From contig NZ_CP032683.1 of the NCBI RefSeq assembly GCF_001304615.2, positions 1,426,001 through 1,490,000 of the forward strand: a DNA stretch of 64,000 nucleotides. The letters run 5' to 3'. This document shows, in pieces, positions 11,005 through 16,200 of the stretch (its first letter is position 1; each line of letters opens with the position of its first letter). Under the pieces are notes generated by a model, which saw only the letters and a program-made list of their open reading frames with translations, was not told the DNA's origin and did not search any database. The translations under genes and the position numbers were made by a program. The DNA comes from Methanosarcina flavescens. Lineage in GTDB: Archaea; Halobacteriota; Methanosarcinia; Methanosarcinales; Methanosarcinaceae.

Positions 11005-12141
11005 ATGAAAGCCGTATGCATCTGTATGGGAGTGCATTTGCCTTACAGTCCCAAGTGGTACTGGCCTGTAGAGGGTTTTTTGGGGATGCCTGAAATGGAT
11101 AGATATTTTGACCAGAATAGTATTTTTTCAAAATTTTTAAAAACGAGCAGGCAACTATTACGCCTTAATGATTTGATTATGGAATCTATTGAAAGGGGAG
11201 GAAAATATTCCTTTGATCTGTCCGGGCCCTTCCTTGAACAGTGTAGATGGGACCCTGAACTTCTCGAATCATTCTACGAACTTGGGGAAACCGGTAGTGT
11301 AGAGTTTACAGGGAGCTGTAATTATCACTCCCTGAGTTCACTATATCCCGATCTATCCTGGTTCAATGAAGAAGTGCTAATGTACATGAAAACACTTAGG
11401 GAATTACTTGGCATTACACCCGAAACATTTGTAAATACCGAACTTCTATATACTGAGAGAGCAGGGAGAATTCTTACCGATCTGGGTTTTAAGTGTCTTA
11501 TCGCAGAAGGGTCGAGAAATCTTATGAATGGGTACGACCCTGTACATGTTTTTGAAAACCACGTTCCGACCCTTCTAAGACATATAAACCTTAGCGAGGA
11601 TCTTGAACTGCGTTTTTCGGAGAAAAACTGGCAAGGCTACCCTCTTATTCCGGAAAAGTTTGTGGATTGGATTGACAGTATGGATGGTGACGTCCTGACC
11701 CTTTATATTAATTATGAGAATATCTGCTTCCATTATAGAAATAAAAGTATGATAGCTGATTTTATCCGGTTGCTTCCCGAAATACTCAAATCCAGGGGAA
11801 TTGAGATGTTGACACCAGCTGAAGCTGTAAAGAGATTCAAGCCTCTGAAACTTCCGACGCTGGCAACTGAACAGACAATACGTTATGGGATGCATAATGC
11901 ATTAGGAAACCATGCTCAACAGCTTTACCTGCGAGAACTGGTAAGAGTTGGCGAGGAACTCTCAGGACTTAAGGGAAAAAAAGATTATAGTAAACTTAGA
12001 GATGTATACGGTTATCTCCAGCAAAGTGAAATATTTTTTTCAATGAACCCTGGAAATATAAGAGAAGGGTATGAAAGAGCTGTAAACTATTTTTCCATTC
12101 TGTCAGATTTCAGAAGAGCTGTGCTGGAGGAGGGAGCATGA
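11005..12141 (+). CDS. GH57-family protein, probably catalytically inactive
   Basis: A 378-residue glycoside hydrolase family 57 homologue, first gene of a glucan-degradation operon. It aligns along its length with the next gene product. The usual HQP near the N-terminus reads HLP (residues 11-13). The nucleophile position is kept (NTELLY, Glu146). The segment matching the catalytic Asp (MDYETFGEHQ in the neighbour) reads INYENICFHY, so Asp is replaced by Asn236 and the GEHQ motif is lost. GH57 enzymes need both acids, so this protein is inferred to be a non-catalytic paralogue, perhaps a glucan-binding or regulatory partner. It overlaps the next gene by four bases (ATGA). The reading frame is intact and conserved-looking, not decayed. 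Confidence 0.82.
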   Translation: MKAVCICMGVHLPYSPKWYWPVEGFLGMPEMDRYFDQNSIFSKFLKTSRQLLRLNDLIMESIERGGKYSFDLSGPFLEQCRWDPELLESFYELGETGSVEFTGSCNYHSLSSLYPDLSWFNEEVLMYMKTLRELLGITPETFVNTELLYTERAGRILTDLGFKCLIAEGSRNLMNGYDPVHVFENHVPTLLRHINLSEDLELRFSEKNWQGYPLIPEKFVDWIDSMDGDVLTLYINYENICFHYRNKSMIADFIRLLPEILKSRGIEMLTPAEAVKRFKPLKLPTLATEQTIRYGMHNALGNHAQQLYLRELVRVGEELSGLKGKKDYSKLRDVYGYLQQSEIFFSMNPGNIREGYERAVNYFSILSDFRRAVLEEGA

Positions 12142-13334
12142 CCTCGGTTTGTATCTACTTCCAAGCGCATCAACCGTTCAGACTACGAAGGTTTTGGCCG
12201 GATGACAGATCAGGGTTTTTCCGCTATTTCGACGAGAGAAGCAACAGGGAAATCTTTGAAAGAGTAGCCCGGAAATGCTACATTCCTGCAAACAGAGTAC
12301 TTCTGGACTTGCTTGAGAGGTATAAAGGAGAATTCAGGTTTTCTCTTTCAGTCACCGGAACCCTGCTCGAGCAATGCGAACTTTGGGGAAAAGATGTACT
12401 CGAGAGTTTCCGACAGATGGCGGAAACCGGATCAGTGGAGTACCTAGACGAAACCTTCTATCATTCTCTCTCAAGCCTTTTTGACGACAAAACCGAATTT
12501 GTTGAGGAGATAAGAGAGCACAGAGAAAGTATGTCTGATCTTCTGGGAGTTAAACCTGAGGTATTTCGGAATACCGAACTGCTTTACAATAACACGATAG
12601 CAAAGCTTGTTTCTGACCTCGGGTATAGGGCTATCCTTACTGAGGGTGCGGATCATATACTTGATGGAAGGTCTCCCAACGTGCTTTACAAGGCAAAAGG
12701 CTCGGGACTTCCAGTTATACTCAGGAATTATAAACTGAGTGACGATATAGGATACAGATTTTCGGCAAGGTGGTGGGAAGGATACCCTCTGACTGCAGAA
12801 AAATGGGCCTCATGGGCATCTGGGATTAATGAGGATTGTATTAATATCTTTATGGACTATGAGACCTTCGGAGAGCATCAATGGGAAGAAACCGGGATAT
12901 TTTCCTTTCTGGAAAAGCTGCCAGAGGAAGTTCTCAAGACTCGCCTGAATTTCAGCACTCCCCTTGAGCTTACCGAAAAATACTCACCCGTTACCGAGAT
13001 TGATATAGGGGATTTTTCTACAATCTCCTGGGCTGATATGGAACGCGACACCAGCGCATGGCTTGGCAACGACATGCAAAGGCGCTGCTTTGAAGAGATA
13101 AAGCTGCTTGAGCCATTTGTAAGGAAAACAGAGGATCCTGAAATCCTGCGCATTTGGAAGCACCTTCTAACTTCGGATCACTATTACTACATGTGTACTA
13201 AGTGGCTCGGGGATGGGGATGTCCACTCATATTTCAGCGTCCACTCCACGCCCTTCGATGCCGCTGTTAATTTCATGGCTGTACTTATGGATTTCAAAGC
13301 GCAGGTATTCAGGAAACTTAGCGCAATAGCTTAA
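12138..13334 (+). CDS. GH57 alpha-amylase-type glycoside hydrolase
   Basis: A 398-residue intracellular GH57 enzyme that would hydrolyse or rearrange alpha-glucans such as glycogen. Motifs in order: AHQPF (HQP at 11-13), the nucleophile in FRNTELLY (Glu147), LTEGAD around 168-172, and the acid/base Asp240 in FMDYETFGEHQ. All catalytic elements are present, in contrast to the paralogue upstream. No signal peptide is seen, so it acts on stored rather than external glucan. Its start lies inside the last codons of the upstream gene, and the ACT-V4R gene follows after 38 bases. Activity could be alpha-amylase or 4-alpha-glucanotransferase; sequence does not decide. Confidence 0.9.
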   Translation: MTSVCIYFQAHQPFRLRRFWPDDRSGFFRYFDERSNREIFERVARKCYIPANRVLLDLLERYKGEFRFSLSVTGTLLEQCELWGKDVLESFRQMAETGSVEYLDETFYHSLSSLFDDKTEFVEEIREHRESMSDLLGVKPEVFRNTELLYNNTIAKLVSDLGYRAILTEGADHILDGRSPNVLYKAKGSGLPVILRNYKLSDDIGYRFSARWWEGYPLTAEKWASWASGINEDCINIFMDYETFGEHQWEETGIFSFLEKLPEEVLKTRLNFSTPLELTEKYSPVTEIDIGDFSTISWADMERDTSAWLGNDMQRRCFEEIKLLEPFVRKTEDPEILRIWKHLLTSDHYYYMCTKWLGDGDVHSYFSVHSTPFDAAVNFMAVLMDFKAQVFRKLSAIA

Positions 13335-13372: not shown

Positions 13373-14182
13373 ATGGTAAGGGACTTATTCATGTTTGCAG
13401 GCCTCAATGAGAGGTCGCAGATTGTATGGTTTAAAATTATTTATTCAAAGGAACCCGGATCTTTATCCTCAATAATCAATTTTCTGGAAAAAGAGAACGC
13501 ATTCATTATGTTTGGTCATCTGGATAACATAACACAAAAAACAGGAGAATATTCAGTATTTATCGAGCTTGATAAAAATATCGATCCAGAAGACTTTGCC
13601 AGGAAGATAAAGGAGCTTGACGTTGTAAGTGAGGTAGAATATGGAATTTCAAAGTACAGAATGATCTATTCTGCGGACTTTCCCCTTAATGTCGTAGGAG
13701 TCAGAGGAGTTGCGGCAAGAGCACTCACAATTGTCGATATCATTAAGACTCTCAACCAGAATGTGCCACATGCCGAGGGACTTCTCACAATGTCAGGACT
13801 TAAGGGAGGGATTCACTCAGCAAAATATTTTAAGAGTATTTTGAACCTTAATGATAGTAATTTCGCAGATGTGCTTGCAGAACTCTACAGGGCTGTAGGC
13901 TGGGGAATCCTTGAGATCGAATGCGATCCAAAGACGTATCAAGGAAAAATTATTGTTAAAGATTCGTTTATAGCTGACGTTTACGGAGGATCGGACCAGC
14001 CAGTTTGTGCCTTTATGAGCGGCTATTTTGCAGGTTACCTGACCGATTATTTTGGGAAAAACATTAGTGTGAGGGAGGTAAGCTGTAAAGCTACAGGAAA
14101 GAATGTCTGCGAACATATAATCTCACCGGCACCGTCGGGCGGCACAGGTCAGGAATACCAGCTGAGAGGGGAGACGCGGTGA
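13373..14182 (+). CDS. ACT-like plus V4R domain protein
   Basis: A 269-residue protein with two apparent ligand-binding parts. Residues about 17-95 look like an ACT domain (KEPGSLSSIINFLEKENAF, then an FIELDKN strand). Residues about 100-255 form a V4R (4-vinyl reductase) domain ending in a SCKATGKNVCEH motif, the typical cysteine pair of V4R proteins. V4R domains bind small hydrophobic molecules or tetrapyrrole-related ligands and often serve as sensors. No DNA-binding domain is visible. It sits between the amylase genes and the glucoamylase gene, overlapping the latter by four bases (GTGA), so it is probably a metabolic sensor for glucan breakdown. That role is inference. Confidence 0.78.
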   Translation: MVRDLFMFAGLNERSQIVWFKIIYSKEPGSLSSIINFLEKENAFIMFGHLDNITQKTGEYSVFIELDKNIDPEDFARKIKELDVVSEVEYGISKYRMIYSADFPLNVVGVRGVAARALTIVDIIKTLNQNVPHAEGLLTMSGLKGGIHSAKYFKSILNLNDSNFADVLAELYRAVGWGILEIECDPKTYQGKIIVKDSFIADVYGGSDQPVCAFMSGYFAGYLTDYFGKNISVREVSCKATGKNVCEHIISPAPSGGTGQEYQLRGETR

Positions 14183-16200
14183 TAAGGCTACCCAATGCCG
14201 TTTTAGGAAATGATGAGCTGCTTGTAACAATGGGGAGAAAAGGAGAAATCCTGGGCTTTTTTTATCCCCGACGAGACCACGCTCAGCACGTCGAAGAATC
14301 CGTCGCCTGTATCCATACAGGCGAAAAGCTTCTCTGGACCAACGATAACGATTGGCACTGCATCCAGAATTATATAGAGGATACCAATATAGTATCCACA
14401 AAACTCTATCATGATTCGGGAATCCGAATTTCCATTCTTGATCTTGTACATCCCGATGTGCCTGTTCTTATCCGCAGGTTTAAGGTTCAGTCCCAGAGAA
14501 AAATTTCGGGAAAATTCTTTTATTATTCTAATTTTAATGTAGGGGAAACCTCTAAGAAAAACTCAGGTTTTTGCGATACCGATACTCATTTGCTCGCACA
14601 GTACTGGCAAAACCACTATATAGGGATTTATTCCCTACCAGAGTTTACCGAATGGCAGATAGGAAAGGCAATGGATACTATTTGGTGGACTAATTCCAAG
14701 TATGATATGGAAGATGGGAAACTCCAGAGAAATAAGGAAGATATAGGAAATATTAATAACGCAGCTGGCTGGGACCTTGAACTGGAGGCTGGCGGAGCAA
14801 ACGAATTTGTTATCCTGATAGGAGCTGCATCTTCCAGACACCTCCTGTATAAGAGGATATACGAACTCTCAAAACTGCCCCTTGAATACATTTTCGAAAA
14901 GACAAGAGAACACTGGGTCATGTGGCTTTCAAGAAAGCAGGTGCTCAGGATGCCTGGAATAGAGGGATACGATAGCCTGCGGCAGGAGCTATTCAGTGCT
15001 TATAATCGAGCTCTCCTTGTGCTTTATCTCCTTAATGACCGCGAGTACGGGTCTTTTGTGGCTGCTCCGGAGTTTGATTCCAACTTTGAGAAATGCGGAG
15101 GTTACGGCTTCTGCTGGAACCGAGACACTTCAGAAATCGTGCTTGCACTAAAACGTTCCGGCTATCCAGAGTATTGTGATACGTTTTTCAAATGGTGTAT
15201 CCGTACCCAACTTCCTGATGGATCTTGGTTTCAACGCTACTGGCTCAACGGGGACATAGCTCCTTCCTGGGGCAATTTTGATTACTCAACTCAGATAGAT
15301 GAAACCGGATCCACGCTTCATGCTATGGATGTTTATTACAGGGTTCTCGAGGGTCTGAAAAAAGCTGAGTTTCTCGAAGAAGTCTGGGTTTCCATACTCA
15401 GGGCTGCGGAATACCTGATGAAACGAACCAAGTCAGGAATCCACGAAAGCTGTATGGATCTCTGGGAAACTTATTACGGAATTTTCACTTATACAAACGC
15501 TTCAATCTACGCCGGGCTTATGGGTGCTTCCCACCTTGCTGAAGAGAACGGGGAAACTGGTATGGCAAGACGCTGGAAGAAGAGGGCGGAGTTCATCAAA
15601 CAGGCTACGATTGATCGTTTCTGGCTTCAGGAAGGTTATTTTGCAAAAGGAGTTATTAACGGAAAACTGGACAAAACCGCTGATGCAAGCATTCTTGGAA
15701 CCTATGTTCCTTTTGGAATGCTCTCCCCGAAAGATCCCATAGAGAGGGATATGATCCAGTTTATGATAGAGAATATTCAGAAAAAGCTCTCAGTACCTAT
15801 CAATCTCAATTATGGCATCAAAAGGTATGAGAATGACAGTTACATAAACGGAAATCCGTGGGTAGTGACCACTCTATGGCTTTCAAAAGCTATGTTTGCA
15901 TTTGCCCTTGATCTTCCCTATGAAAAAGCAATATCTTCCCCCATACAGGAGACCCACTATGAAAAAGAAGACAGATATGATGAGAACGTAAAAAGGTTTA
16001 CCAGTGAAGGGATTAAATGCCTTAAGTGGGCTCTTGCCGGGGCAACCAGCACAGGACTTCTCCCGGAGCAAGTAGATCAGTCTACAGGCAAGCCTGCCTG
16101 GGCAATTCCCCTCGGATGGAGCGGAGCCCTGATGCTTGATAACATTCTGCTGCTGGACAAAATATGCAGGAGAAAAGCCGGGAGTAAAAATGAAAGTTAA
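14179..16200 (+). CDS. Glucoamylase / glucan 1,4-alpha-glucosidase (GH15)
   Basis: A 673-residue GH15 enzyme that releases glucose from the non-reducing ends of alpha-1,4-glucans. The N-terminal 250 or so residues form the beta-sandwich typical of prokaryotic GH15 proteins (LGNDELLVTMGRKGEI opening). The alpha/alpha barrel follows, with GYGFCWNRDTSE, the likely general acid Glu in CMDLWETYYG, and the likely general base Glu in TGLLPEQVDQ. There is no signal peptide, so it is cytoplasmic. GTG start overlaps the ACT-V4R stop. Together with the GH57 enzyme it would turn storage glycogen into glucose and maltodextrins. It ends the operon. Confidence 0.92.
   Translation: MIRLPNAVLGNDELLVTMGRKGEILGFFYPRRDHAQHVEESVACIHTGEKLLWTNDNDWHCIQNYIEDTNIVSTKLYHDSGIRISILDLVHPDVPVLIRRFKVQSQRKISGKFFYYSNFNVGETSKKNSGFCDTDTHLLAQYWQNHYIGIYSLPEFTEWQIGKAMDTIWWTNSKYDMEDGKLQRNKEDIGNINNAAGWDLELEAGGANEFVILIGAASSRHLLYKRIYELSKLPLEYIFEKTREHWVMWLSRKQVLRMPGIEGYDSLRQELFSAYNRALLVLYLLNDREYGSFVAAPEFDSNFEKCGGYGFCWNRDTSEIVLALKRSGYPEYCDTFFKWCIRTQLPDGSWFQRYWLNGDIAPSWGNFDYSTQIDETGSTLHAMDVYYRVLEGLKKAEFLEEVWVSILRAAEYLMKRTKSGIHESCMDLWETYYGIFTYTNASIYAGLMGASHLAEENGETGMARRWKKRAEFIKQATIDRFWLQEGYFAKGVINGKLDKTADASILGTYVPFGMLSPKDPIERDMIQFMIENIQKKLSVPINLNYGIKRYENDSYINGNPWVVTTLWLSKAMFAFALDLPYEKAISSPIQETHYEKEDRYDENVKRFTSEGIKCLKWALAGATSTGLLPEQVDQSTGKPAWAIPLGWSGALMLDNILLLDKICRRKAGSKNES

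Follow-up and report, generated by a model that had tools for sequence, protein, structure and literature searches.

A degenerate GH57 alpha-amylase-like protein, very probably a pseudoenzyme, encoded in tandem with an active-looking paralogue in an archaeal glycogen operon

Introduction

The closest described relatives of the proteins treated here are the "alpha-amylase-like" GH57 proteins, for which the accessible part of a 2018 survey gives 126 sequences, 60 of them archaeal; their analysis was deferred, and some of them keep both catalytic residues (PMC6037648). For the alpha-amylase specificity, the same part of the survey names a single characterised member, the GH57 enzyme of Methanocaldococcus jannaschii. 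Inactive isoforms are flagged in the archaeal table of a 2024 review, which also cites a GH57 null mutant of Sulfolobus that contains little glycogen (PMC11046441). The plant isoamylase ISA1-ISA2, as far as the accessible part of its description goes, combines a catalytic and a degenerate paralogue in alpha-glucan metabolism (PMC12510319), and the plant proteins BAM4 and BAM9 are non-catalytic amylase paralogues that regulate polyglucan breakdown (PMC8774843). Our literature search found no papers on a GH57 pseudoenzyme.

Here we describe two tandem GH57 genes, A and B, located in a window of 64,000 nucleotides (the whole stretch of DNA that was analysed) from Methanosarcina flavescens. Like the "alpha-amylase-like" proteins, A has a fold near the alpha-amylase specificity and belongs to a set in which one or both catalytic residues are substituted, with exceptions that keep both; it thus appears to be a member of this recognised kind. 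The tandem pair, the operon and the lineage-by-lineage decay are features of A/B that do not figure in the accessible survey text. B shares with the M. jannaschii alpha-amylase the E/D pair, the R that starts CSR-3 and the two tyrosines that end CSR-5, but B proteins of the pair clade are about 398 aa long and have A as a partner, and B is a predicted enzyme. ISA1-ISA2 can serve as a model for A-B, although it is a eukaryotic GH13 complex for alpha-1,6 debranching and A-B is a putative complex. BAM4 and BAM9 resemble A in the role proposed below, but are GH14 proteins of plants and, unlike A, are not co-transcribed with an active partner. By analogy, A would work like ISA2 or BAM4/BAM9 and be homologous to neither. 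Inactive GH57 homologues have been catalogued without an assigned function; in the present case one is tied to a single active-looking paralogue, a glycogen operon and GT3 glycogen synthase across several archaeal families. What is new is this fixed pairing, the operon and a series of independent decay states.

Results and discussion

Gene pair and predicted structures

The features of the locus are as follows (all on the forward strand).

11005–12141 (+): A, alpha-amylase-like GH57 protein whose active site is degenerate, 378 aa; PF03065, 202.6 bits; E146/N236; defects common to 100 relatives
11440–11442 (+): codon GAA for Glu146, nucleophile position of A; aligns with Glu147 of B
11710–11712 (+): codon AAT for Asn236, acid/base position of A; aligns with Asp240 of B, and model strand 230–236 ends there
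12138–12141 (+): ATGA, shared by the stop of A and the start of B; the same 4-base overlap recurs among the fetched loci (52 of 63, with some genomes represented more than once)
12138–13334 (+): B, GH57 protein of alpha-amylase type with complete catalytic motifs, 398 aa; PF03065, 292.5 bits; E147/D240, CSR motifs invariant
12576–12578 (+): codon GAA for Glu147, nucleophile of B
12855–12857 (+): codon GAC for Asp240, acid/base of B; ends model strand 234–240
13373–14182 (+): R, V4R-domain protein, probable operon sensor/regulator; PF02830, 69.7 bits; same place in families f1, f2, f3 and f6
14179–16200 (+): GH15 oligosaccharide amylase/glucoamylase; TIGR01577, 964.5 bits (cutoff 820.7); PF00723

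The GH15 gene starts with GTG and overlaps R by GTGA. The PF03065 scores of A and B exceed the curated cutoff of 21.2 bits, and no further PF03065 protein was found in the genome of 3.28 Mb. A first-pass annotation of the window had described A as an intact frame, translationally coupled to an active paralogue, that keeps the nucleophile Glu146 but carries Asn236 opposite the catalytic Asp240 of B. On checking the sequence, the frames, coordinates, ATGA overlap and residue numbers (Glu146/Asn236 in A, Glu147/Asp240 in B) were all found to be correct. The reported HLP in A in place of HQP in B was likewise present, and the GEHQ motif is indeed missing from A, which reads NICFHY where B reads TFGEHQ. 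Of the catalytic residues of a GH57 alpha-amylase, a Glu nucleophile and an Asp proton donor, B has both and A only the Glu. The two tyrosines that close CSR-5 in B (SDHYYYM) are also lacking in A (SEIFFSM).

AlphaFold2 models of A and B built from the family alignments reached a pLDDT of 85 each and display the incomplete TIM barrel of GH57. A sequence search of the PDB with A, B and their profiles gave no match at 1e-3, and fold comparison alone was productive: the best Foldseek matches of both models were the GH57 structures 5wu7, 1k1x, 1ufa and 3p0b, with a probability of 1.00. Strand beta-7 ends at residue 236 in the model of A and at residue 240 in that of B. Together with the alignment to Asp240 of B, this common strand end supports the assignment of Asn to the acid/base position of A. 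The annotation had considered that another Asp might take up the catalytic position, which would have spoken against its reading; the models contain none, since beta-7 ends at Asn236 and Asp240, respectively.

Decay of the catalytic centre

One A protein per genome, 100 in total, was aligned with 34 B proteins. All 34 B proteins keep the E/D pair, while the nucleophile/acid-base pairs of A were E/N (41), E/K (35), E/D (12), E/R (4), Q/N (3), D/D (2), E/S (1), Q/D (1) and H/deleted (1). One or both catalytic residues are therefore lost in 88 of the 100 relatives; Asp persists at the acid/base position in 15, and Lys is nearly as frequent as Asn. We had to abandon the idea that Asn at this position is a conserved hallmark of A, as the residue varies among the 100 proteins. 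Parsimony on a tree built without the two catalytic columns required at least eight acid/base and at least four nucleophile changes. The states, from an intact E/D through N, K, R, S and the replacement of E by Q, D or H to a deleted segment, form a natural series that can be compared directly. In family f6, the nucleophile of A is replaced by His and its acid/base segment is deleted, yet the gene still stands within the order A-B-R-GH15.

Other defects are uniform. His348 of CSR-5 and Asp304 of B are absent from every one of the 100 A proteins, D202 is replaced by Glu in 97, and E242 is left in only two. E246 is replaced throughout a set of 31 A sequences, and the loops bearing D300, D304, V362, H363 and F366 are missing in A. 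Among 56 positions invariant in 65 B-type proteins, 17 were lost in the 31-sequence set and 20 were kept in at least 90% of it, including the pocket-like H11, E169, D203 and W213. The defects common to all A proteins lie in CSR-5 and the preceding loop, and Asn236 is one lineage's version of a wider decay. Since every A lacks His348 and Asp304, the loss of these CSR features probably predates the radiation of A. Most likely, the CSR-4/CSR-5 features were lost first, in the ancestor from which all A proteins descend, and drift of the two named catalytic residues followed.

From these alignments, A is very probably a pseudoenzyme. One could argue that it is still a catalyst that uses a non-canonical acid/base or substrate-assisted chemistry, as Glu146 is conserved in 93 and His243 in 87 of the 100 proteins and 12 of them, from Argoarchaeum/GoM-Arc1 and Methanomethylovorans, still have both Glu and Asp and might be active. 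We regard this as quite unlikely: the nucleophile was lost in several separate lineages (to Q, D or H), His at position 348 is never present, the loops listed above are gone, and the deletion of the acid/base segment in f6 left the operon in place.

Selection and evolutionary rates

The median dN/dS was 0.094 for A and 0.063 for B (Nei-Gojobori, 167 within-genus pairs), so A is under purifying selection. Tree lengths of 9.0 for A and 4.8 for B indicate that A evolves faster. Its eroded catalytic motifs and higher rate could be taken as signs of a decaying duplicate on its way to a pseudogene, but we reject this reading, to which we assign only a minute chance, in view of a dN/dS of about 0.09. 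Moreover, no internal stops occur in A among the full-length matches listed, and A is present in practically all genomes that carry the pair, across a range as wide as a class. Relative-rate covariation gave a partial r of 0.55 for A-B and 0.57 for A-GH15 and hence no specific A-B signal.

Distribution and co-inheritance

A search of the order with A returned matches in 109 of 186 genomes. Nearly all genomes with matches in families f1 (including Methanosarcina, Methanolobus, Methanococcoides, Methanomethylovorans, Methanohalobium and Methanosalsum), f2 (Argoarchaeum/GoM-Arc1) and f3 had two adjacent ones, A followed by B, and the pair also occurs in f6, another family of the same class. With about 100 genomes carrying it, the pair is not a chance association. 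In a maximum-likelihood tree, A forms one clade (support 100/100), the B proteins of A-bearing genomes form another (99/97), and f6, f2, f3 and f1 separate in corresponding order in both; the branch of the f6 A is very long, which makes its exact position uncertain. A/B is thus an old pair that has been inherited together throughout the history of the A clade. B-type proteins without A were found in f4, in f7 (probably Methanotrichaceae), in other archaea of the phylum and in six aligned Bacteroidales records. The converse, A without B, was not found in unfragmented assemblies, and no rearranged pair was seen in the fetched loci. Within f1 and f3, the 4-base overlap is a conserved feature.

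This distribution bears on whether A might act on its own, as a non-catalytic regulator or glucan sensor of the BAM4/BAM9 kind that forms no stable complex with B and for which operon and overlap serve co-expression only. An active site that is degenerate but preserves some of its pocket would suit such a protein, the operon holds a sensor-like V4R protein, and in plants BAM9 regulates starch breakdown without being an enzyme (PMC8774843). The absence of A without B from unfragmented assemblies, the lack of any rearranged pair in the fetched loci and an ATGA overlap that is stable across two families, which favours coupled assembly, make this reading unlikely in our view.

Two side observations concern B. 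In f4, a family of the same taxonomic order that lacks A, the B-type proteins (loci L053, L056, L059–L062) group with the solo B of other archaea, outside the pair clade, which suggests replacement or transfer; GT3 was absent from the two f4 genomes tested. In f6, the B gene (L244, G186:C4; near L214, 1441–2680) contains an in-frame TAG and is otherwise intact, so that the codon may represent pyrrolysine, a sequencing error or a lesion.

Operon and glycogen context

The order A, B, V4R, GH15 recurs in f1, f2, f3 and f6. In four f1 loci (L204, L208, L210 and L042) no V4R gene was detected, implying that it is dispensable for the A-B pair. The N-terminal region of the V4R protein (13373–14182) may be an ACT-type domain. 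A GT3 glycogen synthase gene adjoins the pair in several genera, and in a panel of 22 genomes A and GT3 agreed in 20, being present together in 12 and absent together from 8, the exceptions being one f2 genome with A and no GT3 and one f7 genome with GT3 and no A. As the panel was picked partly by the presence of A and its genomes are not phylogenetically independent, this co-occurrence is supporting and not independent evidence. It agrees with a published study in which the joint presence of glycogen synthase and alpha-amylase was predicted for some Methanohalophilus species only (PMC6491703).

Six GT3-bearing genomes (G092, G107, G106, G108, G015 and G189) revealed no GH13 and no GH57 beyond A/B or B. 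In several of these genomes no candidate for a branching enzyme was seen other than B, with or without A, and the review cited above asks whether a GH57 'amylase' is the missing branching enzyme (PMC11046441). A and B could accordingly be imagined as a heteromeric glycogen branching or glucanotransferase enzyme, in which B cleaves and forms the covalent intermediate and the dead GH57 subunit A holds and presents the acceptor chain. If true, such a heteromer would supply the branching step that is missing from methanogens lacking a branching enzyme of GH13 or GH57. We consider it improbable: the f7 genome tested has GT3 and B without A, so A is not generally required for branching; CSR-5 of B (SDHYYY) is of the alpha-amylase type and not the branching-enzyme fingerprint; and A (378 aa) and B (398 aa) fall short of the average of 546 aa for GH57 branching enzymes. 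Methanosarcina offers a genetically tractable case in which to study the function of GH57 pseudoenzymes and the identity of the enzyme that branches methanogen glycogen.

In the M. flavescens genome itself, a GH13 gene (G000:C1, L198, 3978–5854, minus strand) is split into two overlapping frames of 356 and 293 aa, which reach no GlgB cutoff, and its counterpart in a congener is a single frame of 627 aa (L199, 3470–5353). In this finished genome, the split gene is probably broken.

Proposed role of A

The first-pass annotation had proposed that A is retained in a non-catalytic role, such as a glucan-binding or allosteric subunit. The general part of this proposal, a pseudoenzyme kept by selection, is well in agreement with purifying selection, monophyly, co-inheritance with B, the overlap and repeated catalytic loss without gene loss; as to the specific part, we infer a physical A-B complex, glucan binding by A and an effect on B. 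Overall, we lean with modest confidence towards A serving B as a subunit or partner without catalysis of its own in the glycogen metabolism of the cytoplasm, and having arisen by an ancient GH57 duplication. According to this model, a GH57 gene of alpha-amylase type would have been duplicated, and the copy that became A would have lost its CSR-4/CSR-5 catalytic features before the present clade radiated and then been kept as the partner of B. Translational coupling would fix the A:B ratio. A retains the barrel and some of the sugar pocket (His11, in most cases Glu146, Glu168, Asp199 and Trp209), yet would be unable to complete catalysis. Most likely, its task would be to hold or position either an alpha-glucan chain or the conformation of B, and thereby to give B the right chain specificity on glycogen; the V4R protein would probably be a sensor of state and the GH15 enzyme probably trim the products.

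Several points count against this model. Pure scaffolding does not require Glu146, which is so widely conserved, and the proteins with an intact Glu/Asp pair might be active. B occurs alone in other archaea and hence does not need A in general, and the rates of A covary with those of B no more strongly than with those of GH15.

We also considered that A might replace a C-terminal domain missing from B. This was rejected, as solo B proteins are short as well (about 390–405 aa in f4, f18, f21 and some Bacteroidota). No natural A-B fusion was seen among the A open frames listed, the longer ones inspected (L035 and L036) being upstream extensions. In genus g5, A (L035, 5944–7323, minus strand) bears at its C terminus a charged tail of some 57 residues with a repeat-like character (PEKR/QEKR), directly ahead of the B gene.
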